The position numbers and the translations under genes were made by a program. Under the pieces are notes generated by a model. That model was not told the origin of the DNA. It did not search any database and saw nothing but the letters and a program-made list of their open reading frames with translations. From Haloglomus litoreum (GTDB lineage Archaea; Halobacteriota; Halobacteria; Halobacteriales; Haloarculaceae), in assembly GCF_029338515.1 (NCBI RefSeq), contig NZ_CP119988.1, positions 3,100,001 through 3,164,000 on the forward strand: 64,000 nt of DNA. The letters are read 5' to 3'. Below, piece after piece: positions 25,489 through 44,398 of this stretch (positions are counted from its first letter, which is position 1; the number at the start of each line of letters is the position of its first letter).

Positions 25489-26961
25489 ATGCCACAATTC
25501 TCCGCTCTATCGATGGCTAAGGACTCAACTGTTTTGAAACCAATCCTGGTAACAGCATCGATAGCTATTGGATTAGCTTCGAGCTTTTTTGTTAGATATG
25601 TAGGGATCAATCTTTTAACGCCAGATAATTATGGCCAGATAGCAGTTTCTCTTTCTATTTTCAGCGTTGGGTCGATGCTATCCATGATTGGACTCCAAAA
25701 GGCCATAACATCAATTGTTGCCCAAAGTGAGATGGGAATTAGCGAGGTTCTTCGAGACTCACTATATATTTCTGTTGTCTCGTCGGCAGTCTTCCTTACT
25801 ATTTCAGTTCCAGCAATTTATTTTGAGTTCCAGAATCGAGAAACTCTAACAGTGATAATCTTATTTTGTTTCTCTATACCATTTGCAAATATAATCCGAA
25901 TTATCACATCAATACTTCAAGGTCAAAATAAAACCATAACAGCATCTTTCATCGAAAATATATTATTTCTCAGTGGCGGATATTTGGTTCTAGTTATATT
26001 GTTCGTATTTAGGCTTTCAGTCACTGACGCGGCGCTCGCCTGGATGATATATGTTTCTATTGCCAGTGTATTGATTTGTACATTTTATAGTAATCAGAAG
26101 CTGGAGGTTAGAGAATACTTACCCAGTTTGGATAATTCGAAAAGGATATTAGCTCTTTCGGTTCCATTAATGATCTCAGACGCTGCGTGGGAACTCATGA
26201 TAAATAGTGATAACATCATACTGGGCATCTTGCTAGGATCTCGTCTCACCGGTATATATGACGGTATGTTCACGATTACGAGGGTATTGCTTGTATTTAT
26301 TACCGCAGCAGGGTTCGTTTTTTTACCACGGTATGCAAGTGTATACTCAGATGGAAATGATCCGTCTCCACTCTATGTAAAGTATAGTAGAGGATTATTT
26401 ATTGTATCTTTGCCAATATTTATAATATTAGTCACAAATTCGATTGAGATAATAGATCTCCTATATCCACAGGCATATAATTATGGAAACGAATCGCTCA
26501 TCATATTATCCGTCGGAATATTTTCCCACACAGTTTTTGGCCTTAATGGATATGCGCTTATAGCGGAACAGAAGACGAGAGTTATAGCATTAGGAAATAT
26601 TTTTGGTGCCTTTTTGAATATTACCCTGAATTTACTATTTATCCCTACGTTAGGGATTATCGGTGCAGCATTCGCATCGACAGCAGGATACCTTGCGACC
26701 AATATTATATTCTCAGCTTATATATTTAAAAGAGTAGACATAACAGTCTACCTTCGTTCTTTATTTGTTCCAGCAGTTCTTGGATGCATCGCCATCACTA
26801 CTACTAAAATTATTAAGATTACAGCGAATATTGATGGGTACTTTTCACTCTTCAATAATATTTTAATTTTTGCTATAATATATTCTTTGCTTATTCTAAG
26901 ATTTGGAATCTCTGAGAGCGAATTGGCCAAATTGTCATATTACGTAAAAAATAGGTTCTAA
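25489..26961 (+). CDS. Oligosaccharide flippase (Wzx/MATE-like)
   Basis: This 490-residue protein has about 12-14 transmembrane segments, starting ILVTASIAIGLASSFFVRYV and continuing with LLTPDNYGQIAVSLSIFSVG. That is the typical start of polysaccharide transporters of the MVF/MATE superfamily, which flip lipid-linked sugars across the membrane. It is AT-rich. Its last codons and stop (AGG TTC TAA) include the 8-bp target duplication of an IS6-type insertion; the insertion leaves the coding sequence intact. Confidence 0.88.
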   Translation: MPQFSALSMAKDSTVLKPILVTASIAIGLASSFFVRYVGINLLTPDNYGQIAVSLSIFSVGSMLSMIGLQKAITSIVAQSEMGISEVLRDSLYISVVSSAVFLTISVPAIYFEFQNRETLTVIILFCFSIPFANIIRIITSILQGQNKTITASFIENILFLSGGYLVLVILFVFRLSVTDAALAWMIYVSIASVLICTFYSNQKLEVREYLPSLDNSKRILALSVPLMISDAAWELMINSDNIILGILLGSRLTGIYDGMFTITRVLLVFITAAGFVFLPRYASVYSDGNDPSPLYVKYSRGLFIVSLPIFIILVTNSIEIIDLLYPQAYNYGNESLIILSVGIFSHTVFGLNGYALIAEQKTRVIALGNIFGAFLNITLNLLFIPTLGIIGAAFASTAGYLATNIIFSAYIFKRVDITVYLRSLFVPAVLGCIAITTTKIIKITANIDGYFSLFNNILIFAIIYSLLILRFGISESELAKLSYYVKNRF

Positions 26962-27021
26962 GGCACGGTCTAGTTAGCGCAGATTGAGGAACGAGCAGGT
27001 CGTTGAGTGTCTTGCCTAGAG

Positions 27022-27647
27022 ATGCTCGCAGACCTGCTCGAGAAGGACTACAACGGGGAGTTAGATGAATATTGGGAGCGTGAGCGGACAGCGACGCCCG
27101 TCAGGGGGTTCGCCGTCTGGCTGCACGCGACTGGGTGTCCACTCAGAGAAACAGAAGCGATTCTCGCGGCTCTCGGCGTGGAACGTTCGCATCAGGCGAT
27201 CTTTCAATGGTTCATCGAATGACTGACAGCAGTCCTGACCCGCCGACGGCGCAGCCGTCCCGGGTCGCGGTTGACGAGACTGCTGTCCGAATCAACGGCG
27301 ACCTGTGTTGGGTAAACGCTGCAATCGACCTCGACACGAAGTTGATCCTCGATGCCCAGATCTTCAAGCGGCACGGCACCGATACAGCGGCTGCGTTCCT
27401 CCACAGACTCCGTGAAAACCACGACTGCACGAACACCACGTTTCTGGCGGATTCCTTCGGCTATCGGACTGCCTTCAATCGATTAGGGCTGAGCGGTCAG
27501 GTAGACTACACCGACCGAAACCTCATCGAAAAGTGGTTTCACACACTCAAACAGTGCATCGATTTCTCACTACGTGCAATACTACAACGAACAACGACCG
27601 CATCAAGCGCTCGACGGACGAACGCCGGCTGAAGAAGTGCTAAACTA
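27022..27647 (+). pseudogene. IS6-family transposase, frameshifted and internally deleted
   Basis: The N-terminal frame reads MLADLLEKDYNGELDEYWER and continues through ILAALGVERSHQAIFQW, then stops at TGA near 27,220. The rest of the DDE domain continues in another frame (RVAVDETAVRINGDLCWVNA, and TFLADSFGYRTAF). It breaks again near 27,568, after which QYYNEQRPHQALDGRTPAEE appears in a third frame. About 20 residues of the C-terminal region are missing relative to the usual family pattern. It cannot encode an active enzyme. Confidence 0.75.
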
Positions 27648-28702
27648 TAGTAGTCGGTAGAATTTTCTGCTCAGGGACAGTTGGAGTAGGTAGTGGACCA
27701 TCTCGACGAGATCTCTGTCGAGGAACTGCAAGACGCCCTCGACAACGTGGACGGAAAGAAGCCGACACAACGGCTCCTGGCCGCGATTGCGTACAAGAAC
27801 GGAGTCACGCAAACCGAGCTAGCGGAGTGGTACGACGTGCCGCGGCGAACGATCTACAGCTGGCTCAAGCGACTCGACACAGACGAGTCGCTTGAGCAGG
27901 CTGTGTCTGATGATAAACGAACTGGGAGAAAACGTAAGCTCTCAGGAGAACAACAAGAAGAATTCGAAGAAGCCGTTCACGACCCACCTGAAGCGGTCGG
28001 GGTTAACGCGCCGGCGTGGACGCCGGCGCTTGCCCAGGAATTTCTCGAAGACACGTACGACGTGGAGTACTCAATCCCGAGCTGTCGGCGGTTGTTGAAA
28101 GAGGCGGGATTGAGCTACCAGAAACCACGCCGTACAGCCGCCGAAGCTGACGCAGACGAACGAGACGAGTTTTACGACGAGTTCAAAAAAAGCGGCGGGA
28201 GATGGACGCCACCGTAGTCTGTATCGATCAAACCAAGAAATCCGTCCAGGTCGAGCCGCGTGCCGCGTGGTTTCCGCGCGGCACGCGGCCCTCGGTCGAA
28301 CTTTCGGGCCAACGCGACTGGACGTGTTTGCTCGGTGCGATCACCGAGGACGGTGATCGCTTCTTCTCCCGATTCGAAGAGTACGTCACCGCCGAGCATG
28401 CGAAACATTTCATCTTAGCATTATGTGACGAATTCGAAGATGATTTGCTCATCGTCCTGGATGGAGCGCCGTACTTTCAGACGTCGGCCGTCACGGACCT
28501 CGCGGCCCGTGACGACCTCGCTTTCGTGACGCTCCCGTCGTATTCGCCGGAGCTAAATCCGGTCGAAGAATGCTGGAGACAGCTTCAAGCCGCTCTCAGT
28601 AACCGCTTTTTCGACTCGCTCGACGAGCTGACGACCGCGATCGATACCGCTCTCGACCAACTTTCCGTTCCAAAAGTGAGTAATTACTTCTAACCACTAC
28701 TA
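27648..28702. mobile_element. IS630-type element, 1055 bp
   Basis: Terminal inverted repeats TAGTAGTCGGTAGAA (left) and the complement of TTCTAACCACTACTA (right) match at 13 of 15 positions. TA dinucleotides lie immediately outside both ends (27646-27647, 28703-28704), as expected for IS630/Tc1 transposition. It lies inside the right part of the IS6-type element. Confidence 0.8.
27693..28693 (+). CDS. IS630-family transposase in two frames
   Basis: The first frame (27693-28217, GTG start) encodes helix-turn-helix domains (LLAAIAYKNGVTQTELAEWY, VPRRTIYSWLKRL). The second frame (-1 relative, to 28693) encodes the DDE domain with VVCIDQTKKS, LIVLDGAPYFQ and the typical SYSPELNPVEECWRQL. The frames meet at a run of seven A (28185-28191); a -1 shift there would fuse EFKK to KKRREMDATVV. 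This could be programmed frameshifting or transcriptional slippage. Alternatively it is a simple inactivating mutation. Confidence 0.75.
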
Positions 28703-28766
28703 TAGACAGTGCCGGTTCTAATTGATTACCGGAACGTAAATACCGTCTGAGTGTTCCAAGTGAGTC

Positions 28767-29951
28767 ATGAGCCGGATACTATTTTTGTGTACGCGGATCC
28801 CATTTCCTCCCGTAGATGGGGCCAAGGTCCGTATGTATAATATGGCAAAGGCTCTCCACGAGATCGGACATCAAGTATATATTGTTTCAATTTGTGACGA
28901 GAGCCCCTCAGATAAAGCCATTCAAGCCCTCTCCGAATTGGGTAACTACCATCATATTAGAAAGTCGTCAATAAAGATGTGTCTCTCGGGGATAAAGGGA
29001 ATATTCTCAAGTAAGCCGCTCCAGACGAGTGTATACCGGTCTACCGAACTATCGAGCTGGATCCAAGATAATAATGGAGATTTTGACATAATATATTGTA
29101 ATCACCCGGCAACAGCCCCATATGCATATAATTTTGAAGGGGGCAAAGTTATTGACTTTGTGGATGCGATGTCGATTAGTTATGACCAGATGGATAATAT
29201 CGGCAACTTTATCTGGAAATTCATATATAAAATTGAGTCTAAAAGGCTTCAATCATACGAAGCGGAAATTGCTAGCGATTTTGATTTATCTCTAATAACT
29301 TCGGAGCCCGATCGGAATGCCATCGTTAGAAACGTTTCAAATCCGGATGAGGTTAATATCCGGGTGATTCCAAATGGAGTTTCCAAAGATATCACAGACT
29401 TATCCACTGATGGAAACCGCCCCTGGGTATCTTTTCTTGGAGATATGTCATACCACCCAAACATAGATGCGGCTCTCTTTTTCGCCTCCGAAGTATTTCC
29501 AAAAATCAAACAAGTTAACCCAAACGTCCATTTCAAGATTGTAGGCAAGGATCCAGCCATGGAAATAAAGAAACTTCAGAATCGAGAGTCAATTGATGTT
29601 ACAGGATTTGTAGATAACCCTTATGAATACATCTCAAAAAGTATGGTGTCTGTTGCCCCTATGAGATATGGTGGTGGTATTCAGAACAAAGTAATTGAAT
29701 CTATGGGTGTTGGTACTCCAGTTGTTGCTACGTCCAAAGCAATAGATGGCTTGAACGTTACCGTCAATGATGAAGTAATCGTCGCCGATGAGCCAGATTC
29801 AATGGCGGAAGAAGTCAATCGACTTCTGTCGAGTCAAGATCAACGAAGTTCAATTTCCAAGTCGGCTAAAGAACGTATTCTAACCACATATACCTGGGAG
29901 AGCATACAGGGATTATTAGGTAGAGAAGAAATATTTTCTGAACTCGATTGA
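28767..29951 (+). CDS. GT4 family glycosyltransferase
   Basis: This 394-residue protein begins MSRILFLCTRIPFPPVDGAK with a GT-B fold layout. It contains NPDEVNIRVIPNGVSKDI, WVSFLGDMSYHPNIDAALFF, HFKIVGKDPAMEIKKL and the C-terminal MRYGGGIQNKVIESMGVGTP, resembling the exopolysaccharide-associated GT4 subgroup. It is AT-rich and continues the glycan island beyond the nested insertion sequences. Confidence 0.87.
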   Translation: MSRILFLCTRIPFPPVDGAKVRMYNMAKALHEIGHQVYIVSICDESPSDKAIQALSELGNYHHIRKSSIKMCLSGIKGIFSSKPLQTSVYRSTELSSWIQDNNGDFDIIYCNHPATAPYAYNFEGGKVIDFVDAMSISYDQMDNIGNFIWKFIYKIESKRLQSYEAEIASDFDLSLITSEPDRNAIVRNVSNPDEVNIRVIPNGVSKDITDLSTDGNRPWVSFLGDMSYHPNIDAALFFASEVFPKIKQVNPNVHFKIVGKDPAMEIKKLQNRESIDVTGFVDNPYEYISKSMVSVAPMRYGGGIQNKVIESMGVGTPVVATSKAIDGLNVTVNDEVIVADEPDSMAEEVNRLLSSQDQRSSISKSAKERILTTYTWESIQGLLGREEIFSELD

Positions 29952-30017
29952 ATTTGGATTGATATATTTCAAGATATATACTGTGGACCTTTTCCACTAA
30001 AATAATGCAACAGAGAG

Positions 30018-30263
30018 TCATATATTTCCAGGTAACTTCTTTAGAAATTCGAACAGAGAATGTGTGTGCTGGCCTATACCTGGGATTGAACCCGCCATCT
30101 CCGCGATGGTCAACTGATACGGGGTGTCTCGGAGGGGTTGTACGAGGTAGTCGGTGACACGGTCTTCTAGGGAAGTGTCAGCGTACGAGGTATCCCCCCA
30201 ACCGATGTGTCGATGCGTTTCCGGCCAACCACGTGTCCACACCGCAATAATGAAATTAATCAC
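30018..30263 (-). CDS. Short hypothetical protein, probably a 3' gene relic
   Basis: This 81-codon frame reads WPETHRHIGWGDTSYADTS and continues DYLVQPLRDTPYQLTIAEMA. It is GC-richer than its AT-rich surroundings, so it may be the conserved 3' end of an older chromosomal gene cut by island rearrangement. I do not recognise the family. The start at 30263 lies in AT-rich sequence and is doubtful. The rest of 29,952-30,358 is AT-rich without an evident gene. Confidence 0.35.
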   Translation of the reverse strand: MINFIIAVWTRGWPETHRHIGWGDTSYADTSLEDRVTDYLVQPLRDTPYQLTIAEMAGSIPGIGQHTHSLFEFLKKLPGNI

Positions 30264-30358
30264 AATCTAATTCATTCACTGAATCTGGATGGATATGGTA
30301 TAATCCATATCTAACAACTAACCCAAAGAACAATACGCAATGTAAATCAATAACTGAT

Positions 30359-30784
30359 ATGGGCTTCGAGAAATTCGATGAAGCAGGCAGTGGCCGCGGC
30401 CGCCCGGCAGGCACCGAGCCGATGATCTCCATCCGCAAGTCGGGGAGCATTGGCGTCAACCAGGCCGCCATCGAGGCGTTCTTCGAAGACGACGACGGCG
30501 CCGTCATGTACTACGACGAGGACGCCAACCAGGTCGGCATCGAGCCGGTCGCGGACAAGGACGCCGACGAGGCGGCCTACACCGTCAGCAAGTCCGACTC
30601 CGGCGGCACCATCGCCCCAAAGGCGTTCCTCGAGCGCTACGACCTCATCCCGGAGGTCACCACGCAGTACGACCCAGAGTGGAACGACGAGGAGTCCCTC
30701 GTCGTCCTCGACCTCGACGAGCCGAAGAAGACATACGGCTCTCCCGACGACGAGGACAGCGACGAAGACGAAAGTGAGGAGTGA
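30359..30784 (+). CDS. Acidic haloarchaeal protein of unknown function
   Basis: This 141-residue protein begins MGFEKFDEAGSGRGRPAGTE and has beta-rich stretches (PMISIRKSGSIGVNQAAIEA, VMYYDEDANQVGIEPV). Its tail is extremely acidic. The repeated short strands resemble an AbrB-like or MraZ-like swapped-hairpin fold, but this is only an impression. GC content returns to the haloarchaeal norm here, marking the right border of the AT-rich glycan island. It converges on the small gene at 30,845. Confidence 0.6.
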   Translation: MGFEKFDEAGSGRGRPAGTEPMISIRKSGSIGVNQAAIEAFFEDDDGAVMYYDEDANQVGIEPVADKDADEAAYTVSKSDSGGTIAPKAFLERYDLIPEVTTQYDPEWNDEESLVVLDLDEPKKTYGSPDDEDSDEDESEE

Positions 30785-30844
30785 ACCAAACAGCTTCCGC
30801 GAGCGCCACCGGAGCAGCGCCCCGCAGAGTATCCCTTCACCCCT

Positions 30845-31060
30845 TCATTCCTCTTCTTCCCTCGGTTCACAGACGACTTCCCGCAGCTCCGCAAGCAACT
30901 CTGGATGGTGTGCTTCAAGCAACTCAACATCAGTCCCAAGCTCCTCAATACGGCTTCTGACTCGAGAAACTGCCTGATACCGCTTCGCTTCGGACACGTC
31001 GGCTTCGCCGCTGATTCGCTCTCGGTCGGTTGTCGTCAGTATCGCCCGATATTTGCTCAT
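30845..31060 (-). CDS. Small helical haloarchaeal protein
   Basis: This 71-residue protein begins MSKYRAILTTTDRERISGEA and continues with helices (YQAVSRVRSRIEELGTDVEL, LEAHHPELLAELREVV). Its length and the opening pattern are common in haloarchaeal accessory DNA; no function is known to me. The ATG at 31060 is preferred to 31099 because the conserved start follows it. It is divergent from the RAMP operon, with three direct repeats in the shared upstream region. Confidence 0.6.
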   Translation of the reverse strand: MSKYRAILTTTDRERISGEADVSEAKRYQAVSRVRSRIEELGTDVELLEAHHPELLAELREVVCEPREEEE

Positions 31061-31092
31061 GAGTCGTTCCCTGCACGCCTGCCACTTCCCAG

Positions 31093-31136
31093 TTAGCACT
31101 CACACCGGCAGTTAGCACCAATACTAACATTAGCAC
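31093..31136. repeat. Three TTAGCAC direct repeats between divergent genes
   Basis: TTAGCAC occurs at 31093-31099, 31112-31118 and 31130-31136, spaced 19 and 18 bases apart, nearly two helical turns. They lie between the small minus-strand gene and the leader of the RAMP operon. A regulator-binding array is the likely explanation. Confidence 0.5.
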
Positions 31137-31199
31137 CAGAGCCAACCATTAAGTACCAGCCCGTCACACTAGGTAGTAGGCACAGGACGGCGCAGAAGC

Positions 31200-31245
31200 G
31201 TCGAGGGTGCTGGAACACCCTTCGACTGTGCTGGAGAACCCAGCA
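31200..31245 (+). ncRNA. Two consecutive hairpins in the RAMP-operon leader
   Basis: Hairpin 1 pairs GTCGAGGGTG (31200-31209) with CACCCTTCGAC (31216-31226) around CTGGAA, with one bulge. Hairpin 2 pairs TGCTGG (31229-31234) with CCAGCA (31240-31245) around AGAAC. They lie 60-110 bases before the first ATG and downstream of an ATTAAG promoter-like motif (about 31149). Whether this is a regulatory leader or a separate RNA is unknown. Confidence 0.4.
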
Positions 31246-31306
31246 TGCGAACCAACGGCAGTCAGCGGCAAGAAGTCACCGCCAGGAAACCAGCGGGGGA
31301 GTCCGT

Positions 31307-32182
31307 ATGATTTCGGAGTCCTTCGCCGAGAAGACGTACCCGGACGATGTGTACGTCCGACTCCAGACCGAGTTGCTGGTGATCGGAGATAGCCTGATGA
31401 CCGATCGCCATCACGCGTCGAACGGCAACTACGATGCCGATGACCCGCAGAACCAGATCGGCGGCATCATCCCCTCGTTCAGTCTCTCCGGCTGGCTCCG
31501 ACATGGAATGGAGAAAGTCGTACAGAAACGGGGCACCACCCCATGCCATCCCGGTGAGTCGAACGCCAATTTCCTGAAAGAGGGCGTCTATTCACGTGAT
31601 CTTGAATCGGGATACCACGAGAAAGGCGCGTGTCTAGACGACGATGGAAACGGCTGCATCGTTCTGGACCTCTTTGGTGGGTTCAGTAACCGGCCGGGGA
31701 AGTTCATGCGCCGACCGATCTCGTTCACCCCCGTCCGATCCAGCGTCGACTACACCCGCGGGCAGGCCGAAGGTCACTATCGCCGCCTGAATCGGAACAT
31801 CGTCTCCCGAAACCCGGATGACGGGCGCGAACCCCTCCGGAACACCGAGTTGGATGCGGTGGCCAATCTGGATGGGTCGTGGCACCTCTCCTTCCGGGAG
31901 CGAAAGCCCGAATTCGTCGGGCTCCTCGCCGAGGCGATCGACTTCCTCGGCGCTCACCAGACCGACATGCTCCACCAGCTCGGTGGAGCCCGGAACTTCG
32001 GCGGTGGCATCGTCGACTGCTCGCTGGTGAATCCGCTCTACACCGAGCGTGAACTCAAGCGTGTCTTCGACCGGACGAAACGCCCCACAGAGTCGATGCT
32101 AGAGAAGCACGACGAATGGGAGAACGACCTCCGACCCGCATTCGTGGCAGCACTCGAGGAGCGAATCGCGGCGGACTCATGA
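31307..32182 (+). CDS. Cas7-like RAMP protein of a HRAMP-type system
   Basis: This 291-residue protein has features of the RAMP fold used by Cas7 backbone subunits. They include an early strand (VRLQTELLVIGDSLMTDRHH), the IPSFSLSGWLRHGMEKVV helix (about residue 55) and a glycine-rich loop, GGARNFGGGIVDCSLVNPLY (about 226). It opens a three-gene operon with ATGA overlaps and no CRISPR array. This matches the haloarchaeal RAMP (HRAMP) systems predicted by Makarova and colleagues in 2019. It would bind RNA; a nucleolytic role is unproven. GGGGGAG lies six bases before the ATG. Confidence 0.72.
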   Translation: MISESFAEKTYPDDVYVRLQTELLVIGDSLMTDRHHASNGNYDADDPQNQIGGIIPSFSLSGWLRHGMEKVVQKRGTTPCHPGESNANFLKEGVYSRDLESGYHEKGACLDDDGNGCIVLDLFGGFSNRPGKFMRRPISFTPVRSSVDYTRGQAEGHYRRLNRNIVSRNPDDGREPLRNTELDAVANLDGSWHLSFRERKPEFVGLLAEAIDFLGAHQTDMLHQLGGARNFGGGIVDCSLVNPLYTERELKRVFDRTKRPTESMLEKHDEWENDLRPAFVAALEERIAADS

Positions 32183-32916
32183 CGGCCACAATGCTGGCGG
32201 TGTACCGCCATGACACGCACAAATTCAACGGCCGCACGCACGACAACGCGCTGGAAGAGTTCGCGGGCGTTGAGGTCAATCAACAGGTCCCCTGCGGTGC
32301 TGACGGCGATGCAGCAGCACTCTCGCGTCCCCTGGAACAACGGGAGCCAGTCGTTCCGACCCACCGGTCCCCCTATCGACTGTCGCTCCTGACTGGAAAT
32401 CCGGTTCACGAGACAGGCGAGACCGCTGGACTGAACGTCGCTGCCGAAGTCGAGGACCTCATCACGTTCTCCGAAGCCGATGTAGCCCACGAGCAGTGGC
32501 TACAGAGCGATGTCGCGGCGATGTACAACGAAGCGGTTGCCTTTCCGTACACGTCCCTGAAGTATCATACATTGCTCGTTGCGGCGCTGCTACACCACTA
32601 CCGAGACGGGCAGGGATTCGGCGACCTCCGACTGGTCGTCGACGAAGCAGAGACAATCGTTCCGCATCGAACGGTGTACGCCGGTGAGCAGTTCTCGCTC
32701 CGTATCGCTACAGACGACGGTCGTCCATCTGCCCGCTTCGGGAGCCGCCTCTGTCGATCGTGGGCGTCGACGTGGAACCGACTGACCGACCACCCGCTCC
32801 GGACAGATGAGAAGAAGTGGGACATGACGCTGGATGCCAACCTCCGGCGCATCCGCGCGTGGAGCACGGCGCTCCAGTACATCGAGGACTTCCAGGGGGG
32901 GTGTCCGGACCGATGA
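32179..32916 (+). CDS. Conserved middle protein of the HRAMP-type operon
   Basis: This 245-residue protein starts at ATG 32179, overlapping the Cas7-like stop as ATGA. It begins MTATMLAVYRHDTHKFNGRT and contains LITFSEADVAHEQWLQSDVA and FPYTSLKYHTLLVAALLHHY. I see no nuclease or helicase motif. The HRAMP description includes an uncharacterised conserved protein next to Cas5- and Cas7-like genes, and this position fits it. The longer frame upstream lies within the Cas7-like gene in another phase. Confidence 0.65.
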   Translation: MTATMLAVYRHDTHKFNGRTHDNALEEFAGVEVNQQVPCGADGDAAALSRPLEQREPVVPTHRSPYRLSLLTGNPVHETGETAGLNVAAEVEDLITFSEADVAHEQWLQSDVAAMYNEAVAFPYTSLKYHTLLVAALLHHYRDGQGFGDLRLVVDEAETIVPHRTVYAGEQFSLRIATDDGRPSARFGSRLCRSWASTWNRLTDHPLRTDEKKWDMTLDANLRRIRAWSTALQYIEDFQGGCPDR

Positions 32917-33812
32917 CGGTACTTCAGCAGGTACTCTGGGAGCTCGAGATGGATTACATCGGACATCCCTACTACGTGTCCGGAAACGCCATCCTCAACG
33001 CCCTCGTCCAGAACCTCGACACGGATACAGCCCGATCGCTCAAGGCATCACACGGGATGTTCGTCCCCGGGCAGTTCGGGACGTTCCCCGAAAACCACAG
33101 CCAGTCCGGGAGTCAACCGTACCTCGGTGCGGGGCTACCAGCGGTGGAGACGTACGATGACCTGTTCCTCCACCGCGAACCGGACCAGGGGTGGCTGCTT
33201 GACTCCCGGGCGAGGGATGCGCTGAACATCCACGGTCTCCGGGTCGACGGTGGCCACCCGACACTGGCTCATCAGACGATAATAGGCCGCCCACCCGAAC
33301 ATCAACGGCAGAAGCTAACCACGCGCTGGTACATTCACGCGTATCTGCACGCCGACAACCCCTCGACACTTCCGGTGTCCGAGGAGTCGCTCGGGATGGT
33401 CCAGTTCGGTGCGAAGCGAAACTACGGCTATGGGGAAGCAACCCTGAAAGCGACCCAGACAGTCGATCTCGATGCACTAGACTTCACCAGACTGGATGAG
33501 GCTGAGACACACCTGATACGGTTGGTGACACCGTTCGTTACCAGCAGTGGATACCCAGGGGCGAACGATGTCCCGGTCCCCTGGTGGTGGGACGAATCGA
33601 GAGACGGCCTCCGTTTCCGAGAGGAGAAAATCGTGGATTCGGGAACGGTCCACCGACTGGAGACTGTCGACCATGGGCAGGTCGTGGAATACGCGGGTGA
33701 CTGTCCGGTCGAGACAGCACGGAACGGGCTTACACGAGTCGGATCGCATTCTCGATTAGGCTTCGGTGAACTGCGGGTCATTCCACTGACCGAGTCGGAG
33801 GCAGGTTCGTGA
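32913..33812 (+). CDS. Cas5-like RAMP protein of a HRAMP-type system
   Basis: This 299-residue protein starts at ATG 32913 with another ATGA overlap. It begins with a RAMP-like strand and helix (WELEMDYIGHPYYVSGNAIL). It has two glycine-rich loops, QFGAKRNYGYGEATL (about 165) and VGSHSRLGFGELRVIPL (about 277), the latter very close to the C-terminal G-loop of Cas5/Cas6-type proteins. It could cap or process an RNA guide, but catalytic residues cannot be assigned. No nuclease gene follows; downstream is an epimerase relic. Confidence 0.7.
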   Translation: MTVLQQVLWELEMDYIGHPYYVSGNAILNALVQNLDTDTARSLKASHGMFVPGQFGTFPENHSQSGSQPYLGAGLPAVETYDDLFLHREPDQGWLLDSRARDALNIHGLRVDGGHPTLAHQTIIGRPPEHQRQKLTTRWYIHAYLHADNPSTLPVSEESLGMVQFGAKRNYGYGEATLKATQTVDLDALDFTRLDEAETHLIRLVTPFVTSSGYPGANDVPVPWWWDESRDGLRFREEKIVDSGTVHRLETVDHGQVVEYAGDCPVETARNGLTRVGSHSRLGFGELRVIPLTESEAGS

Positions 33813-33929
33813 TGGCCTACGGAGTCGTATCGAGCGGCAATCGCTCTGCGACAACCCAGAATAAAGCAATCGTATTCCCAACGAAAACTACGGCATCGAC
33901 AAGCTGACCATCGACCGTTACACTCTCCA

Positions 33930-34401
33930 TTTTCCGACCACTACACCCGGTGCTACCACGACCTCTATGGCCTCGAGAGGGGTCGCGCTACGCTATTTTA
34001 ACATCTTCGGCCCCCGCCAGACCGACAGCGCGTACGCGGGCGTCATCCCCATCTTCCTCGAACAGGCCCGGAACGGCGAGCCAATCACCGTCGACGGCGA
34101 CGGCTCACAGACGCGTGACTTCGTCCACATCGACGACATCGTCCAGGCCAACCTGCGTGCCGCCACCACCGATGCCGTCGGCGAGGCGTTCAACATCGGC
34201 ACGGGCACCGAAACCTCCGTCCTCGACCTCGCCGAGACGATCCAGCAAGCGACGGACACGGACTCGGAGATCGTCCACACCGAACCACGGCCAGCCGACA
34301 TCGACCACAGCGTCGCGGACATCTCGAAGGCCCGCGAGCTGCTGGACTACGAGCCCCGAGTGTCACTGCAAGCGGGCATCGAATCGATGGTTCAGGAGTG
34401 A
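33930..34401 (+). pseudogene. NAD-dependent epimerase/dehydratase, N-terminally deleted and frameshifted
   Basis: From 33,967 the frame reads VALRYFNIFGPRQTDSAYAG, then FVHIDDIVQANLRAATTDAV and FNIGTGTETSVLDLAETI, the C-terminal half of a sugar-nucleotide epimerase. Just upstream, CYHDLYGLE appears in another frame (about 33,937-33,970), so a frameshift lies near 33,975. The Rossmann part with the active-site YxxxK is missing. It is a relic of a surface-sugar gene. Confidence 0.75.
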
Positions 34402-34489
34402 GACAGGAGAGAGGGCCTCCAGAAGCCCTCCACGAGGACCGAGAATGCCCCTACTGCATCGGCGGCGATCGACTGCGTTCTAGCCCGAC

Positions 34490-35686
34490 TCACTGCCCGT
34501 CGATCGCCTCGACCACGACATCCGCGTCGCGCAGCAGCCGGTGGATCCGGTAACTCCCCTCGCCAGGTCCACCGCCCGTGTACTCGCTCTCCGTGATGCC
34601 GAGGAAGGCCTGCTCGTTCAGCAGCCGCTGCACCCGGTCGTACGAGAGTGGGTCCGCGTCGAGGCGCTCGGCCACGCGCTGGTACGCCTCGTACACCTCC
34701 GCCGTTCGGAACGCGGTCTGGTCGTTCGACTCCGTCAGCAGCGCAAGTGCGCGGAGGATGTACTTCACGTGCGGCGGCTGCCCGCTGACGAGCTTCTGGA
34801 ACCGATTGATTTCGGCCTGCCGGAGCGCGTCGTCGACATGAGCCTCGGTGACCGTCGCGGCCCCTTCCTTCTCGGCGAGTCGTCCGGCTTCGTACAGCGT
34901 ATCGACCGCCTTCCGCGCATCACCGTGTTCACGGGCGGCCAGGGCTGCCGTCTTCGGAATGACGCCGTCCTCCAGCACGCCGTCCTCGAACGCGTCACGC
35001 CGGTGGTCGAGGATGTTCCGGAGCTGGTCGGCATCGTACGGGTCGAAGACGAGTTCGTTGTCCTGAAGCGACGAGTCGACGCGCTCGTTGAGCCGGTCGC
35101 GGTACGCGATCTTGTTGCTGATGCAGATGACGCCGATGAACGCCTCCGACTTGCCGCTCTCCCGCGCCCGGGAGAGACTCCGCAGGAGGTCTTCTCCGTC
35201 GAGCTTGTCGATCTCGTCGAGTATCACGACGAATGATTGGACATCGTTCTGGTCGAGCAGCTCCCAGGTGATGTCGCGGTAGTCCGGGGCGCCGATGCCC
35301 TTGCGCGGGATGTTCTCCGTAACTGCGTCCTCGTGGAGATTCGTCTGTAAGCCTCGCGCCATCTCGCGACTCGCCTGGGTCTCGGTCTGGTAATCTGAGC
35401 AGTCGACGTAGGCATACTGGAGCGAGTAGCCGTTCTCCGTAGCCGTCCGATGAGCTTCTCGAGTCACACACCTCGCAACGAGTGACTTCCCGGTTCCCGT
35501 CTTCCCATAGATGATCGTCGTCTCTGGGGGACCGCCCTCGGTAGCTGGGCCGAGGGCTCCGCCCACCGCTTTGACCTCGTCGTCTCGACCGACGACCCGG
35601 TCGAGTTCGGGAACGTGCCCGACCCGCACGAGTTCCCGATCTGCGAAGATGTCGCCAGTCTCGAAGATGCTGTCAGCATCCGGCAT
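34490..35686 (-). CDS. Orc1/Cdc6 replication initiator
   Basis: This 398-residue AAA+ initiator begins MPDADSIFETGDIFADRELV. It shows the ORB-binding family layout: HVPELDRVVGRDDEVKAVGG, Walker A IIYGKTGTGKSLVAR (about 57), Walker B VVILDEIDKLDGED, sensor FIGVICISNK and a C-terminal winged helix (about 310-395). It should bind the repeats found directly upstream (35,818-37,536) and start replication there. ATG 35686 is preferred; codons upstream are in AT-rich promoter-like sequence. Confidence 0.9.
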   Translation of the reverse strand: MPDADSIFETGDIFADRELVRVGHVPELDRVVGRDDEVKAVGGALGPATEGGPPETTIIYGKTGTGKSLVARCVTREAHRTATENGYSLQYAYVDCSDYQTETQASREMARGLQTNLHEDAVTENIPRKGIGAPDYRDITWELLDQNDVQSFVVILDEIDKLDGEDLLRSLSRARESGKSEAFIGVICISNKIAYRDRLNERVDSSLQDNELVFDPYDADQLRNILDHRRDAFEDGVLEDGVIPKTAALAAREHGDARKAVDTLYEAGRLAEKEGAATVTEAHVDDALRQAEINRFQKLVSGQPPHVKYILRALALLTESNDQTAFRTAEVYEAYQRVAERLDADPLSYDRVQRLLNEQAFLGITESEYTGGGPGEGSYRIHRLLRDADVVVEAIDGQ

Positions 35687-35817
35687 TACCGGGTACACCT
35701 CGTTCCACAGGCAAAAACCCACCGACCCCATACCGAGTGACCGCGATATATTATGGCTAATATCGCTCTGAAAATACGTTCTATACTCATTTATATAAGA
35801 TAATCCGCAGCTCACCT

Positions 35818-37536
35818 ACACCCGATACCGAGTCAAGCAGACAGAGTGAGTTCGGGAATTACGCCCCCTTGGAGACACCCGATACCGACTGAGGCCCCCG
35901 AGGGACCTCATCCGCCAGGAGCGTCGACCGTCAGTTGGTACGAGGTGTGGGGGACCACCCATGACTTCCAATCCAAGAGGCGCCCGTCCAGTCGGAAGCT
36001 CAGTCGGTACGAGGTGTGTCCGTGAGGGTCGGGATAGAGGAACGAGATGCCCGTCCCCAGACGCTGGGGTCACTCGGCACGACGTGTCCCCCGGTTACTG
36101 AGAGCGTCCGACTGGGAACGCCGATTGAGTACATTCGATGCTAGAACCACCGGATGCACTACGGGTGCCACAACCAGTTCGCGATGTTCATAGAACTCGT
36201 CCACACGGGACGTGTCGTCGACACAGTCCATGAGCGTGGGCACGAAATGGTCGCAGCGTCCGGACCCGAAGTGGGACTGGCTGGACCACCGTAGTATCTT
36301 GCGGTCCGTACAGTAACAACCGTGGCTTCGCCGGTTCACACGAACGATGGTGACTGTGATACCTGTGCTTACGGCCAAGCGCGAGTCAACCAAGGCGCAG
36401 CACCTCGAACGAGAGCCCTGTCGAACGGGGGAGGGAGCCGAATCAGATCCGGCGATACATAGCGTTTCCATGGCGAATTCACCCAATACGGACGCCTCAT
36501 GATTCCGTCGTTCGCCTCCCAGACCCCCCACCATTCACGAATCAGCCCGTTCAGCGCTGCTTTCGTCTGATATCGAATATGGATACGGGAGTACCCGACC
36601 TCGGAGATACACAGCCGCCGATAGCGAGCGTTTCCATGGCGAAATCCCGCCGGAGAACGGACACCGGCCTCTGAGCCGACCCGAACCGGGGGTGTTCACA
36701 ATCGCCGCTGTATCCACAACAGAACCTGTGGAGAACGGGTGTGTGCTATCTGCGGGATCGATGACCCCCAGTCGAATATCCAGATGCGAAGAATCGGCGG
36801 TAGCGGCTTGCTACGGTCACTCCCGGAATTCAGATTCTCGGGCGGTTCAGAAGCCGGTGGTCGTGAAATGTCTTCGGAGAGACAGTGTATCGGTAGATCG
36901 AGTCGTATCTCCCTCCGGAGACCACCCTGAACAGTTCGATTGTCACCGGAATCTGGGATGGCGATTCTACCGATACGTAGCCACTACGCTACGTGTACCG
37001 TCATTTGAGTCGGGTCGAGACCCGATTTTCCCCTGTGCCGCGTACGGGTCGATTTCTCCATGGAGAGCGCCGTGTATCGGTATCTTCTATGTAGCTGCAA
37101 TCAGTGGTGTTCATGATTGCGACCGTAGCGAACGGCAGGCGGCCCTCAAATCGGTACATCGGCACTGAAACGGCGAATTGTCGATCCGTGTGGCCAGTGG
37201 GCACCGGTCCACCGTCGGCCCATCGGGCAGGCGAATTCCCCCAGAGAATACACAATCGAATCGTAGAGGTCTTGCTGTGGAGGAGAAAACGGCTGTGGAG
37301 GTTTCACAGACTCCTCAGCTCGAATTACGATTTCACGGAGAGGAGCAGGGAGGACATTGAACGGGAAGATGTGGTTCACTCGGTATCGGGTGGGGGCGTC
37401 AAGCGATAGATCGACACTAGAGCCGTCTTTTAGAGAGCCTTCCAGGCATCTGTCACTCGGCTTGTGGTGTGTCTGTCGACCATTGAACTGCTTCGCAACA
37501 ACACTCGCTCCCGGTGAATCAGTCGGCACGAGGTGT
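35818..37536. other. Putative replication origin with seven ORB-like 16-bp repeats
   Basis: A 16-bp motif close to AGTCGGTACGAGGTGT recurs seven times. It is inverted at 35818-35833 and 35875-35890 and direct at 35933-35948, 36002-36017, 36072-36087, 37378-37393 and 37521-37536. An AT-rich stretch (about 35,755-35,812) separates the repeats from the Orc1/Cdc6 gene. About 1.3 kb without a gene separates the two repeat groups. This is the normal layout of a haloarchaeal origin beside its initiator gene. Confidence 0.8.
36461..36643. repeat. 17-bp direct repeat pair inside the origin region
   Basis: AGCGTTTCCATGGCGAA occurs at 36461-36477 and again at 36627-36643, 166 bases apart, between the two groups of ORB-like repeats. 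No gene covers it. A role in origin function or plasmid maintenance is possible but unproven. Confidence 0.5.
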
Positions 37537-37561
37537 CCACCAGAGAATCCTCACGCCGCTA

Positions 37562-37597
37562 ACATCCTCCCCGCGCTGAAGCACGGGGCTTTCTCCT
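37562..37597. repeat. Solo IS200/IS605-type end hairpin
   Basis: ACATCCT is followed by CCCCG, a CGCTGAAG loop region and CACGGGG, then CTTTCTCC. This resembles the ends of the TnpB elements in this window. No transposon gene accompanies it. It lies just right of the last origin repeat. The remaining bases to 37,721 show nothing recognisable. Confidence 0.5.
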
Positions 37598-37721
37598 TGA
37601 CTTTCCGTAATCCGAGTCAGCAGCCCACCAGAAGTACACGGGGGAACTCCATCGTGAGTCGAAATACCGGAAACCACCTGCCCTTCCAACTAGCCATATC
37701 GGCGGCGCGAGTGAATCTCGG

Positions 37722-38894
37722 TTAGCTGAGAAATTTCCGGAAGAATGAACTCAAGGTACCGTCGTCTTCCGTAGCTCCTTCCGCATCCCTCCCGCCGATA
37801 GGCTCCGAGGATGGAGAATCGTTATCTTCAATCTGTATTTCCAGCGTCTGGATTCGGTCTTCTTTCAGACCGAGCAGCGCCTCCAGCTCCTGCACACGCT
37901 GCTCCAGCAGCCGTATCCGCTCTGCATCGTAGGCTTGCTGTCCACGCAGTTGTGAATCGTGTGAGCTACGAGATGGACTACCATCCTGCGAACCAGTCGC
38001 CGATTCGTAGAACTCGTCGGTCACACCCACAGCCCGCTCGACGGTCACCTCACCGTACGTCGAGCCATCGCTGTAGTGGGGTTCGTCCCACTTCTCACGC
38101 ATCAGCCCCGAGTCACGGAACAACGCGTCCATCCGCTTCGCATCGCCACCGGTCCAGAAGGCGAGCAGACAGCAGAGCGCCATGTCGGCCTCCGACTGAC
38201 TCGTGTAGCCGGTCGTCTGCCCCTTCCAGAGGCGCCGGAACTTCTCCCCGTTCTTCGCGACACCCGCCCGACGGATCAGCTCCGAATCCGAGGGTTCGGG
38301 CTCCGACGCCTGGCCAGAGGCCGGCTCCTCCCCGCCCACCCTCGTCTCTGCGCCGATGTGTTCGTAGTATACCCCGTCGAGCTCCTCGTACCGCTCCTTC
38401 GCCGTCGTGGGCGTCCCTTCGACGTGGTTGCCGGTGACGGTGAAGAAGCGCTTCTTCTCGTACATCTCGACCTTCCCACGACGGTTTCGCTTGTTCGGCA
38501 GCCGCCCCTTCAGGATGACGTGATACCCTGTTCCGCTGGGTGAAACCTCGGTGTACGAATCAAGTACACCGACGATCTCTTTCGCGACCGGGGTCGGCCG
38601 CCCGTTCTCGACATCACGGCAGTCGTCCAGGTCGATACCGACGAGCGGGTCGATCTCGGTGAAGACGAACCCGAGCCCGTAGTCCCACTCGGTCGCGAAC
38701 TCGTACGCGATGTCGAACGAACTCCACGTCTCCGGATCCGTCGTCGATGCCCACTTTCCGGTCGCGGGATTGATCGGCACCTTCGTCGGCTTGCCGTCCC
38801 GCTCTTCTTCCCGCCAGCAGAGCCACTGCTCACGTGCGGTCATAGCATCCGGTATCTCGTCTGCCGTCGGCTGGGGATACGCAGTATCAGTCAT
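37722..38894 (-). CDS. Primase-polymerase-like replication protein
   Basis: This 390-residue protein begins MTDTAYPQPTADEIPDAMTA. The N-terminal half has a phage NrS-1/AEP-like primase-polymerase pattern: WLCWREEERDGKPTKVPINP, GLGFVFTEIDPLVGIDLDDC with the D-x-D pair, SGTGYHVILKG and KRFFTVTGNHVEGTP. A helical region and a C-terminal coiled coil (LLEQRVQELEALLGLKEDRI) follow. Its start overlaps the stop of the VirB4-like gene by 8 bases. It is transcribed toward the putative origin. Confidence 0.75.
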   Translation of the reverse strand: MTDTAYPQPTADEIPDAMTAREQWLCWREEERDGKPTKVPINPATGKWASTTDPETWSSFDIAYEFATEWDYGLGFVFTEIDPLVGIDLDDCRDVENGRPTPVAKEIVGVLDSYTEVSPSGTGYHVILKGRLPNKRNRRGKVEMYEKKRFFTVTGNHVEGTPTTAKERYEELDGVYYEHIGAETRVGGEEPASGQASEPEPSDSELIRRAGVAKNGEKFRRLWKGQTTGYTSQSEADMALCCLLAFWTGGDAKRMDALFRDSGLMREKWDEPHYSDGSTYGEVTVERAVGVTDEFYESATGSQDGSPSRSSHDSQLRGQQAYDAERIRLLEQRVQELEALLGLKEDRIQTLEIQIEDNDSPSSEPIGGRDAEGATEDDGTLSSFFRKFLS

Positions 38895-40488
38895 CGGCCA
38901 CCTCCTCGCCGATGGACAGACCGTTGTCGGCGATAACCTCAGATCCTGCATCACCCTCGGTAGGTGATTCCGCGACGTACCCGTCGATGACCTGTGCCTC
39001 GTACGGACTCGCCCGGACACGAATGGGGAACCAGCCCTCCTCATCTATCCCGAGCAACGCTTCAGAATACCCGTCCTCGTCGTTACCCGCCTTCGCGGTC
39101 CGGACCCAGTTGACCTCGCGCTCTGAGAGACCGAACCATTCAGCGAGTTGCTCGGCCTCCTCGTTTACCCGGTGGATGACTGTCATCGAGCAGAGGTTCG
39201 CGATGGTCCGGGCTTCCGGCGTGAGCGTGAACTCGCCGCCCGTCTGCGTGACGAAGTGAAGCGAGAGATCGTAGTGACGGCTGTGGCGTACGGCCGTCTC
39301 CAGAAACCCGAGCGAGGTCGCATCCGACATGAGGTAGTGCGCCTCGTCGATGACGAACAGCACGCGCTTCTCGGTCGCCTTCGCCCGTTCGTAGACTGCG
39401 TTGAACAACACCTGCATCATCAGCCCCGTCTCCGACCGGCCGCGGCTGCCCTCCTCCTGTCGCAGATCGAGGTAGACGACCTTCGAATCGAGGTCGAACG
39501 CCGTCGGCTGCGCGAGATGTTCGAGGTCGCCATCGGCCCAGAACGAGGGTCGGAGGTCCTTCAGCAGCGACTGCGCGTCCGCGCGGACGCTGTCCTGCTC
39601 GCCTGCGGTCTCGTAGCCGAACGCCCGTGGGTCATCAAGCAGTGTCTCCAGCACGGAAATGACATCCGTGACGGTGGGCGATTCGCGGACGTGCGTGCCC
39701 GGTTCGCGCGTGATGCCCTGGCGCTCGTAGGCCTCTTGCACCGCCCGGCGAAGCGTCTGCTTGCGCTCGCCGAGCGGGTTGTTCGCGACGTGCTCGAAGA
39801 ACGTCCCGAAGAAGGTCATCACCCAGGCGATCTGCTGGGCCCACGGGTCGAGGTCGGGAACGCTCCGTAGGACCGACTCGGGTGTCGGCTTCAACTCGAG
39901 CGGGTTCAGCCCGCGACGCCCGCCCACGGTGATTCGCTCGCCACCGAGCGCCTGACTCACCCCAGCAAATCCACCCATCGGATCGAGCATCACGATGACC
40001 GTGTCCTCGTCGTACATCGCACGGCGGACGAGTTGCAACTTGGTTCCGAACGACTTGCCCGCGCCGAGTTTCCCGATGGTAATCATGCAGTAGCCAGTCG
40101 AGCGGTTGAACCGGTCGAGGATGAGTGGGCTCTCGTTGAGCGCGTACGTCCCGTACTCGATACCCGGCTCGGCAAGCGCACCTGCGACGAACGGGAACAG
40201 CGCACCCGCTGCGCCCGCGAGCATCGGCGTGGTCGTCTCCATCGACTCCGCAAGCTGGTCGACCGCGACAGGACTGCAGGAGGTGAGCGTCGCGGGCTGA
40301 GCCCAGCGCGGCGTCACGGGCGTCAGGTTCGCTGGGGCGCGGCGGGCAGCCTTCCGAACCGAGTCCACGTCGTGTTCGACGGTCTCGCGGTCTTCGCCAC
40401 GGACCGTCAGGAACATCGAGGCATCGAACGCCCGCGTCGGGGTGTTGCGCAAGACGTCGTACAGCGCCTGATAGTCCTCGAGGTCCAA
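38887..40488 (-). CDS. VirB4/HerA-like ATPase, N-terminus lost at a TnpB junction
   Basis: The 533 remaining residues carry a VirB4/TraC-type motor domain: Walker A MITIGKLGAGKSFGTK (about 135), VIVMLDPMGGFAG, Walker B KRVLFVIDEAHYLMSD (about 370) and the C-terminal VTQTGGEFTLTPEA. Such proteins power DNA transfer or secretion. The frame runs up to about 40488, where it meets a TnpB fragment on the other strand. The available start is only a TTG and the usual N-terminal domain is missing, so function is doubtful. Confidence 0.75.
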   Translation of the reverse strand: MDLEDYQALYDVLRNTPTRAFDASMFLTVRGEDRETVEHDVDSVRKAARRAPANLTPVTPRWAQPATLTSCSPVAVDQLAESMETTTPMLAGAAGALFPFVAGALAEPGIEYGTYALNESPLILDRFNRSTGYCMITIGKLGAGKSFGTKLQLVRRAMYDEDTVIVMLDPMGGFAGVSQALGGERITVGGRRGLNPLELKPTPESVLRSVPDLDPWAQQIAWVMTFFGTFFEHVANNPLGERKQTLRRAVQEAYERQGITREPGTHVRESPTVTDVISVLETLLDDPRAFGYETAGEQDSVRADAQSLLKDLRPSFWADGDLEHLAQPTAFDLDSKVVYLDLRQEEGSRGRSETGLMMQVLFNAVYERAKATEKRVLFVIDEAHYLMSDATSLGFLETAVRHSRHYDLSLHFVTQTGGEFTLTPEARTIANLCSMTVIHRVNEEAEQLAEWFGLSEREVNWVRTAKAGNDEDGYSEALLGIDEEGWFPIRVRASPYEAQVIDGYVAESPTEGDAGSEVIADNGLSIGEEVADD

Positions 40489-40489
40489 A

Positions 40490-41581
40490 CGGCAGGTTCG
40501 TGACGCGCTCTACTCCGAACTTCGAGAGGAGACGGACCTACAGGCACAACTCGTCCAAGCCGCCATCCGGCGAGCCGTCGAAGCCGTCAAAAGCGGTGTC
40601 GAACGCTGGAAGAAGGGACAGCGCGTCTCCCAACCGACGTTCACCGCCGAAACGATGGACTACGACGCACGGAGCGCGACCTTCTACCGCAACAAGGTGT
40701 CGCTGGCAACCATCGAGGGCCGGGTCGAACCCTCGTTCGTCCTCCCGGCGGACAGCCCCACGCCCTACGAGCGGTACGTCCTCTCCGAGGACCACGAGTT
40801 CCGCGAGAGTACGGTTCGATACGACGCAGTAGACAACGAGTTCTACCTCCACATCTCGACTCGGCGGATAGACGGCGACGCAGAGGTTTCGGAAGATACC
40901 GGGCACCCCGACCAAACGGTCCTCGGTATCGACCTCGGCGTCAACAGTCTCGCCGTCTCCTCGACCGGGCGCTTCTGGCAAGGAGATGATTACGACCACT
41001 GGTGCCGTGAGTTTGAGAAGCGACGCGGTGGGATGCAACAGCGCGGGACTCAATCCGCGCACAACGCCATACTTCGACTCGGCAAGCGCGAAGAAGCGTG
41101 GCGGAAACAGTACATCCACACCGTCGCTAACGAACTTGTCTCGGAAGCCGTCGAACACGACTGCGACGTTATCGTGTTCGAGGACTTGACCGACATTCGA
41201 GAGCGACTTCCGCACGCGAAGTGGCACCACGTGTGGGCGTTCCGACGCCTCGTCGAGTACGTCGCGTACAAAGCACCCGAGCGGGGCGTCACCGTCGAAC
41301 AAGTTGAGCCGAACCACACGTCCCAACGCTGTTCTCGGACGGACTGTGGGTTCACTCATGAGAACAACCGCCACGGAGAACAGTTTGAGTGCCGGAAGTG
41401 TGGGTATGAGGTGAACGCGGATTACAACGGCGCGAAGAACATCGGGCTACGGTACGCTCGAAAGCGGATACACAGACTCCGTTCCTCGCCTAAGTCGGGG
41501 AGCGGAGACGCAGAAGTAGACCTGCGTATAACTGGTGGAACGATGAGCGGCGAGAGTCACCGGCCTATCGCCGGTGGCTGA
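40490..41581 (+). pseudogene. TnpB, 5'-truncated (second subfamily)
   Basis: Coding sequence is open from about 40475 without a proper start and reads RDALYSELREETDLQAQLVQ, a TnpB N-terminal region lacking perhaps 40-50 residues. RuvC-like motifs are intact: GIDLGVNSLAVSS, IVFEDLTDIRERL, and VNADYNGAKNIGL after the CSRTDCG/CRKCG zinc finger. A hairpin (CACCGGC, CTATC, GCCGGTG; 41558-41576) overlaps the stop. A second inverted structure reaches about 41653, next to the PIN gene stop. An ATG at 40655 could give a shorter protein. Confidence 0.75.
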
Positions 41582-41657
41582 TTGCCGGGAGTCCACATCA
41601 AAGCCCCACCCTCAACGAACCGAGGCGCGGAGCGCCGAGGGAGTAGGGTGAGGTAGT

Positions 41658-42230
41658 TTACGCGTTCTCACCGTCGACAAGATATCGCTGGCGCAGTTGA
41701 GCAACGTATTGGGAATCCCAGCCCTTTGTCTCGACGTAGTAGCTGAGAGCCGCCTCGACGAATTCGCTCGGAAGGACCCCGTGGGCCGCAAACGTACAGA
41801 GGATATGCGGACTCGTGAAGAGGGAATTCCTGTCGTCGAGTGCGAGGCTGACGAACAGGTAGTTGGTCGTGTTGAACTCGTCCGTGATGAAGAGGTCCGC
41901 CTCCAATTCGTTGGCCAGCCAGATTGCCTCGGCTTCCCCGCGGTCGAGTCCGTACTCAAGCGGCTCGTCGGTTCGGTCGTCGACATCGTGTGTCGTCACT
42001 TGGTGGGCTGCTCGGAGCACGAGATCGGCAGCCGTAGCCAGGAGGTCCTCTCCACCCGTTGCCTCAGTGACCTCTCCGAGGACACTCGCAGGAACATGGA
42101 CATCGTACGCCGCGAGGAGGGCTTTGAATGGGTCCGCACCAGAAGGGGCCCGGGCGCGCCGATCGACGACCGGTGTAGCGAGATTCAGCAGGACGTTGGT
42201 GTCGACGACGGCAACGGCTTGCCCCGACAT
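41658..42230 (-). CDS. PIN-domain protein, toxin-like
   Basis: This 190-residue protein begins MSGQAVAVVDTNVLLNLATP, with the first PIN aspartate. ASVLGEVTEATGG and DRGEAEAIWLANELEADLFI carry further acidic residues, followed by TDEFNT. It starts two bases after the stop of a ribbon-helix-helix-like gene, so the two form a toxin-antitoxin-type operon. It is longer than standard VapC proteins because of a C-terminal extension of about 40 residues. The right end of the TnpB element abuts its stop codon. Confidence 0.8.
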   Translation of the reverse strand: MSGQAVAVVDTNVLLNLATPVVDRRARAPSGADPFKALLAAYDVHVPASVLGEVTEATGGEDLLATAADLVLRAAHQVTTHDVDDRTDEPLEYGLDRGEAEAIWLANELEADLFITDEFNTTNYLFVSLALDDRNSLFTSPHILCTFAAHGVLPSEFVEAALSYYVETKGWDSQYVAQLRQRYLVDGENA

Positions 42231-42232
42231 TG

Positions 42233-42625
42233 TCAGGCGCGCGACTCGTCCTCGGATTCAGACGACGAATCGTCCCTCCATTCCGGAATATCGCCGTCGT
42301 AGAAGCTCTCGTCGCTCGGAAGTCCGTCCGCAAGCTGGGGTTCAGCGGGGGTGCGGTCAATCGACGCCTCGAGGAGCTTCATCCGCATGGCCTCCTCGCG
42401 ACCGAGAATCGCCTCGACAGTCTTGTAGTCGACGCGCCCATCGTAGTAGGCGTCGCCAAGACGCCGACGGAATGCCTCATCGTCGGCGAGGGCTTCCAAC
42501 TCATCCTCAAGTGCATCGATGAGGAGTCGAGTCCGAGAGATGTCGAGAATATCGACGACGCTGTCGGCACGCTCGACGAGGGATTTTGGGGCGTTGAAAT
42601 CGATTCGGGTCTTCTCCTCGGCCAT
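42233..42625 (-). CDS. RHH-like antitoxin partner of the PIN protein
   Basis: This 130-residue acidic protein begins MAEEKTRIDFNAPKSLVERA and continues DSVVDILDISRTRLLIDALE, a ribbon-helix-helix-like opening. A long acidic tail (DIPEWRDDSSSESEDESRA) would bind the toxin. The start is ATG 42625; a GTG at 42628 is one codon upstream. A perfect 19-bp palindrome lies seven bases before the ATG. Confidence 0.75.
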   Translation of the reverse strand: MAEEKTRIDFNAPKSLVERADSVVDILDISRTRLLIDALEDELEALADDEAFRRRLGDAYYDGRVDYKTVEAILGREEAMRMKLLEASIDRTPAEPQLADGLPSDESFYDGDIPEWRDDSSSESEDESRA

Positions 42626-42631
42626 CACGCC

Positions 42632-42650
42632 ATGTGTAGAATCTACACAT
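42632..42650. promoter_or_regulatory. Perfect 19-bp palindrome, probable PIN-pair operator
   Basis: ATGTGTAGA (42632-42640), a central A and TCTACACAT (42642-42650) form a perfect inverted repeat just before the antitoxin start. The position mirrors the VapBC operator at 1830-1851, although the sequence differs. Confidence 0.7.
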
Positions 42651-42761
42651 ACTTAGGCATCACGCCGCTCCTTTGACCTGGTGGCATCCGACGACACGCA
42701 CCGCCCAGGGCCTCTATCGAAAACTCGGGAGATACAGGAGACGGGTCCGTTGGCTTTGGAT

Positions 42762-43007: not shown

Positions 43008-44396
<1,389 letters not shown>

Positions 44397-44398
44397 TG

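Follow-up and report, generated by a model that had tools for sequence, protein, structure and literature searches.

The window, a stretch of 64,000 bases spanning positions 3,100,001-3,164,000 of the one 4,695,480-base contig that makes up the host genome, carries a polysaccharide locus in which a flippase-like export gene and a glycosyltransferase gene, both on the plus strand, are parted by two insertion sequences, one lying inside the other (Table 1). The flippase reading frame closes with AGG TTC TAA, and its last bases together with the stop codon form the left copy of an 8-bp direct repeat that directly abuts the ends of the outer, IS6-family element. In the empty site reconstructed by removing both insertions the two genes stand 45 nt apart, the insertions having added 1,760 bp.

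Table 1. Features of the flippase-glycosyltransferase locus (coordinates in the window)
Feature	Position	Strand	Basis or remark
Flippase-like polysaccharide export gene	25489..26961	+	PF01943, PF13440 and MurJ matches above cut-off; ORF
Left 8-bp target duplication GGTTCTAA, with flippase stop codon	26954..26961	.	read directly, 8/8 same as right copy
IS6-family element including nested IS630	26962..28713	+	terminal repeats, five sibling copies L005-L009
IS6 left terminal repeat GGCACGGTCTAG	26962..26973	.	siblings GGCACTGTCTAG
IS6 transposase remnant	27007..27632	+	alignment to intact 230-aa L005; PF13610 36.7 bits, cut-off 27
IS6 right terminal repeat, split CTA/G by IS630	27640..28713 (27640-27647 + 28705-28713)	.	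siblings CTAAACTAGACAGTGCC unbroken
Left TA target duplication of IS630	27646..27647	.	
IS630-family element, 1,055 bp, ends TAGTAGTCGG / CCACTACTA	27648..28702	+	
IS630 transposase, first ORF, helix-turn-helix part	27693..28217	+	NF033545 107.2 bits, cut-off 100; PF13592, other HTH
A-run then G (AAAAAAAG), predicted -1 shift point of first ORF	28185..28192	+	A-run and ORF offset in most relatives
IS630 transposase, second ORF, DDE domain, overlapping the first in -1 frame	28202..28693	+	PF13358 131.7 bits; NF033545 137.1 bits
Right TA target duplication of IS630	28703..28704	.	
Right 8-bp target duplication GGTTCTAA	28714..28721	.	read directly, 8/8 same as left copy
Glycosyltransferase gene	28767..29951	+	PF13692, PF00534; 45 nt past flippase stop if insertions removed

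A sequence-only reading of this DNA had proposed perfect 8-bp duplications around IS6-like ends, coinciding with the last codons and stop of the flippase gene, and both points are borne out. It had also called the insertion phenotypically silent, which holds in so far as the flippase coding sequence and protein are left unchanged, but silence itself is unproven, the two same-strand genes now being that much further apart. Because the insertion parts the flippase from a glycosyltransferase gene on the same strand that lies so close in the empty site, a polar effect on the downstream gene is possible, and the two genes may once have been on a common transcript. Searched against 146 genomes of the family (E<=1e-60), the flippase protein gave no match beyond its own genome, and a scan of the genome collection gave none. 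Because no strain with an empty flippase site was found in these two sets, we infer the IS6 insertion from its duplication alone.

Elsewhere in the window, two adjacent RAMP-like proteins (31307-32182 and 32817-33812) lie beside the polysaccharide locus, with weak Csm3-like and Cmr3-like matches and Pfam RAMP matches below cut-off; a direct-repeat search of window positions 29950-45000 revealed no CRISPR-like array. The listed ORFs at 40655-41581 and 43194-43874 encode putative TnpB accessory proteins of IS200/IS605 type, going by resemblance, which suggests further mobile elements in the window.

The outer and inner elements

Without the nested element the outer IS6 copy measures 695 bp, as against 746 bp in each of five sibling copies elsewhere in the same genome, which lie 0-1 bases apart from one another and of which L005 has an open transposase frame. 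Outer repeats of the siblings are perfect over 8 bp in four cases and span 6 bp in the fifth. The terminal repeats of the window copy are short, near-perfect and start with GG, reading GGCACGGTCTAG on one side and GGCACTGTCTA, up to the IS630 element, on the other, and the siblings carry GGCACTGTCTAGTT at both ends; the left repeat differs from theirs by one base, a variant that is found in other genomes as well. Aligned to L005, the window copy has 638 identical and 57 differing positions, together with deletions of 1 and 50 bp that break the transposase frame relative to the sibling. Against the NCBIfam model NF033587 (cut-off 125) the remnant scores 89.5 bits and L005 180.3 bits, a shortfall that is expected because the copy is broken. 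The window copy is thus a decayed member of the IS6 family, not a non-member.

All but one of the differing positions (56 of 57) are substitutions in the reading frame, distributed as 15/3/38 over codon positions 1/2/3, a pattern which argues that most of the IS6 divergence arose under selection and that the two deletions are probably recent. The two duplications, the family of each element, the unbroken repeat in the five siblings and the CTAG context of IS630 relatives are shown directly; the timing of these deletions relative to the IS630 insertion, the loss of IS6 mobility and any effects on transcription are inferred. In their 8-bp duplications, GG tips and IS6 transposase match, the window copy and its siblings resemble the archaeal IS6 clades Ai and Aii as portrayed in the portion of PMC7986276 drawn on here, according to which IS6 elements make 8-bp repeats and members of these clades measure 700-750 bp, a range that includes the sibling length. 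Set against that same portion of PMC7986276, the window copy stands apart in its shorter length without the nested element, its broken transposase and its split right repeat.

The inner element has inverted ends, TAGTAGT...ACTACTA, with TA on each side. Each of its two ORFs matches one half of NF033545, the NCBIfam model for the IS630 transposase, above the cut-off, and the two overlap where seven A in a row precede a G. Because a 509-base ORF offset and a similar A-run are common to most relatives, and because in one relative (L017), with eight A, the offset is 510, which would correspond to fused frames, a full transposase is likely to be made via a -1 shift at the A-run; frameshifting is known for some IS630 members, according to the part of PMC5009743 consulted. 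TA duplication and a DDE transposase liken the element to the IS630/ISY100 group of Tc1-mariner type, as characterised in the excerpted text of PMC2170065, while its transposase, divided between two ORFs that a -1 shift at the A-run would join, sets it apart from the elements described there. The element looks intact from its sequence and is single-copy at DNA level in the genome, where two further matches are short (49 and 39 bases), the 49-base one lying inside the element itself on the opposite strand. With a DDE_3 transposase, a TA duplication and a preference for CTAG among its relatives, it is a member of the IS630 family, and the assignment of both elements in the sequence-only reading was correct, PF13610 and NF033545 matching above cut-off and PF13358 at 131.7 bits.

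Nesting and order of events

The IS630 element, with its TA duplication, had rightly been placed inside the IS6 element, but the statement that it lies just before the right terminal repeat is wrong, as it splits that repeat at CTA/G. The sequence-only reading had missed this split at a CTAG, as well as the broken IS6 transposase and the conserved frameshift arrangement of the IS630 element. The right end of the window copy reads CTAAACTA, then the IS630 element, then TAGACAGTGCC, which abuts the 8-bp repeat (CTA...TAGACAGTGCC). All five siblings read CTAAACTAGACAGTGCC at this end, which agrees with the window once the IS630 element and one TA are removed; none contains the IS630 element, and each keeps the exact empty site. 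Because IS6 is continuous in the siblings and interrupted here, and because the 8-bp duplication lies outside both elements, IS6 came first and IS630 second; the order is therefore readable, as had been claimed. Very probably, then, IS6 inserted at the end of the flippase gene and IS630 subsequently struck a CTAG in its right terminal repeat, and the case is an ordinary nested insertion.

On this account, an IS6-family element would have transposed into the last bases of the flippase gene, creating an 8-bp duplication (GGTTCTAA) that regenerated the flippase stop codon on the left; two small deletions would have broken its transposase; and after the IS6 insertion a Tc1/mariner-like IS630 element, moving by putative cut-and-paste transposition, would have entered the TA of a CTAG within the right repeat, duplicating the TA and splitting the repeat, so that IS6 and the later IS630 together would have pushed the glycosyltransferase gene to its present distance. 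The same order is seen in another genome (G016), where an IS630-type element of ~110 bp lies in the left IS6 repeat and the outer 8-bp repeat, GAAAGTAC, is perfect.

Two other readings bear on this sequence of events. Chance similarity of the 8-bp repeat and the IS6-like ends has next to no probability, given that the siblings share both ends and the element sequence, all five contradict it, and nothing was found in its favour. It is also improbable, at perhaps the level of an outside chance, that IS630 entered an IS6 copy elsewhere and that the composite was afterwards moved to the flippase site by an IS6 transposase acting in trans: the IS630 insertion has left the outermost 11 bp of the right repeat (GGCACTGTCTA) in place, intact sibling IS6 genes are present in the genome and the outer duplication is perfect, but the genome holds no second composite, IS630 is single-copy there, and no near-identical composite was found in the 146 family genomes. 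Movement of the composite as a unit is accordingly the weaker reading compared with IS6 insertion followed by IS630 insertion at the site.

CTAG targets and recurrence across haloarchaea

The target context of the inner element was scored on the 18 IS630 relatives from haloarchaea whose two ends could both be aligned; L014 and L015, among these, have one flank in common. TA stands on both sides in 17 of the 18, and the full C-TA-G context, in which the left TA is preceded by C and the right TA followed by G, is present in 16. IS630 reportedly prefers CTAG, as the title of a 1991 paper by Tenzen and Ohtsubo has it, and the 16/18 context agrees with that title. An intact IS6 copy of this genome has three CTAG sites (positions 9, 55 and 735), two of them within the terminal repeats; IS630 sits in the IS6 repeat because IS630 relatives target CTAG and haloarchaeal IS6 ends carry it. 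One and the same IS630 copy is found at the loci L014 (G075:C4) and L015 (G047:C2), whose hosts belong to different genera; the flanks as printed do not differ and the contigs measure 140 and 126 kb, which suggests a plasmid segment in common.

Recurrence was assessed with a pattern joining an IS6 tip to an IS630-type end (GGCACNGTCTATAGTA), with the reversed pattern as control. It was found at 25 places, spread over 17 of the 391 genomes of the class, against one control match. After merging of the two ends of one element (G423:C39) and of three pairs with shared or near-shared outer flanks (G359:C34/G413, G262/G307 and two places close to the opposite ends of contig G298:C2), ~21 sites with IS630-type ends in an IS6 terminal repeat remain in those 17 genomes, a count that includes one (G277) whose end does not look IS630-type. 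Eight further sites (G397, G181, G423 twice, G316, G251, G435 and G360) have full or partial relatives of the window IS630 beginning at the junction, and many other junction elements are non-coding, roughly 85-140 bp long and share the same ends. Among 14 printed junction loci the IS6 repeat resumes exactly at TA/GTT past the inserted element in eight; G397, G181, G423a, G262 and G277 lack such resumption, and none was observed in G359a. In the genome collection the pattern is found in ten haloarchaeal species among the matches listed (80 of 109 stretches), which are mostly from unrelated bacteria; these bacterial matches were rejected as real sites and left out of the counts, a 15-base pattern matching by chance.

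Several loci of related make-up were encountered. In L209 (G423:C39, ~134275-135349) a complete IS630 relative is bordered on either side by an outer IS6 tip (GGCACCGTC, GACAGTGCC), the IS6 interior and the 8-bp repeat both being absent; it is perhaps a recombination product of two elements. At L018/L225 (G076:C4, ~544824-545890) the IS6 tip GACAGTGCC comes directly after the right end of an IS630 relative whose left end is damaged, with no other IS6 tip within the 4-kb locus. Small non-coding elements (L230-L256) have ends CTATAGTA...TACTATAG and many measure ~85 bp; in some haloarchaea such ends exceed 100 per genome (133 in G298, 113 in G232).

Whether IS6 ends are struck more often than their CTAG content would predict was gauged from hand sums of tables for the 13 genomes richest in small IS630-type elements, which are all those with at least 49 such ends. 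Intact IS6-type tips, sought as GGCACNGTCTAG, occur in 258 of the 391 genomes, chance background included. The 13 genomes hold 915 small-element ends, counted with a pattern that places six bases ahead of GAA and does not detect the window IS630 subtype (0 matches in its own genome); occupied tips number 9 and intact ones 108, chance matches included (the control gave 29). About 8-10% of IS6 tips are thus occupied, compared with roughly 2-4% of all CTAG sites, which number ~24,000 in the 13 genomes when extrapolated from 400,000 bases. In those 400,000 bases, from ten of the 13 genomes, CTAG was observed 183 times against 434 expected from trinucleotides, and its density by stretch ranges from 2 to 43 per 20 kb.

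These figures, together with the junction count against its single control match, are what speaks for haloarchaeal IS6 ends being a specially preferred landing pad of IS630-type elements, beyond CTAG frequency and neutrality. We nonetheless regard such preference as unlikely and did not adopt it: the excess of occupancy over other CTAG sites is modest, about 2- to 5-fold, and comes from nine junctions, two of them with a common flank; insertions are tolerated in dead mobile elements and purged from genes; and CTAG density varies widely between stretches. With an excess of this size only, CTAG availability and neutrality therefore suffice, and availability of the target combined with tolerance in dead elements could account for what is seen.

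Implications for haloarchaeal mobile elements

Nested mobile elements are already known in haloarchaea, and the locus described here is an ordinary case with a tidy rule. The survey of Haloquadratum walsbyi (PMC3119063), in the sections available, records 192 insertions of one element in another and small non-coding elements landing in transposons, a situation like that of the window in that mobile elements lie inside mobile elements, but unlike it in that IS605-type elements and PATEs were the usual targets; the same sections do not describe IS6 ends struck at CTAG. The open-access literature searched yielded, among the papers listed, none on IS630-type insertion in IS6 ends at CTAG, subscription journals being mostly outside that body and absence hence unproven. 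The value of the case lies in two insertions whose succession is cleanly readable, five siblings in the genome still showing the empty site of the inner element, and in a wider pattern that ties the preference of IS630 for CTAG to the presence of this tetranucleotide at haloarchaeal IS6 ends and thereby lets one predict, by a simple rule, where IS6 elements get crippled.

Haloarchaeal genomes are poor in CTAG, and the part of PMC6471742 consulted treats the cause as an open question. Since IS6 terminal repeats carry this otherwise scarce tetranucleotide, IS6 ends might serve as a standing landing pad, with CTAG-directed IS630-type elements as recurrent hyperparasites of IS6 across haloarchaea; we put this forward as a long shot. 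If it were true, each IS630-type hit would cripple an IS6 end, and CTAG-directed transposition could be one of the pressures that keep CTAG rare in haloarchaeal chromosomes, an idea that can be tested.
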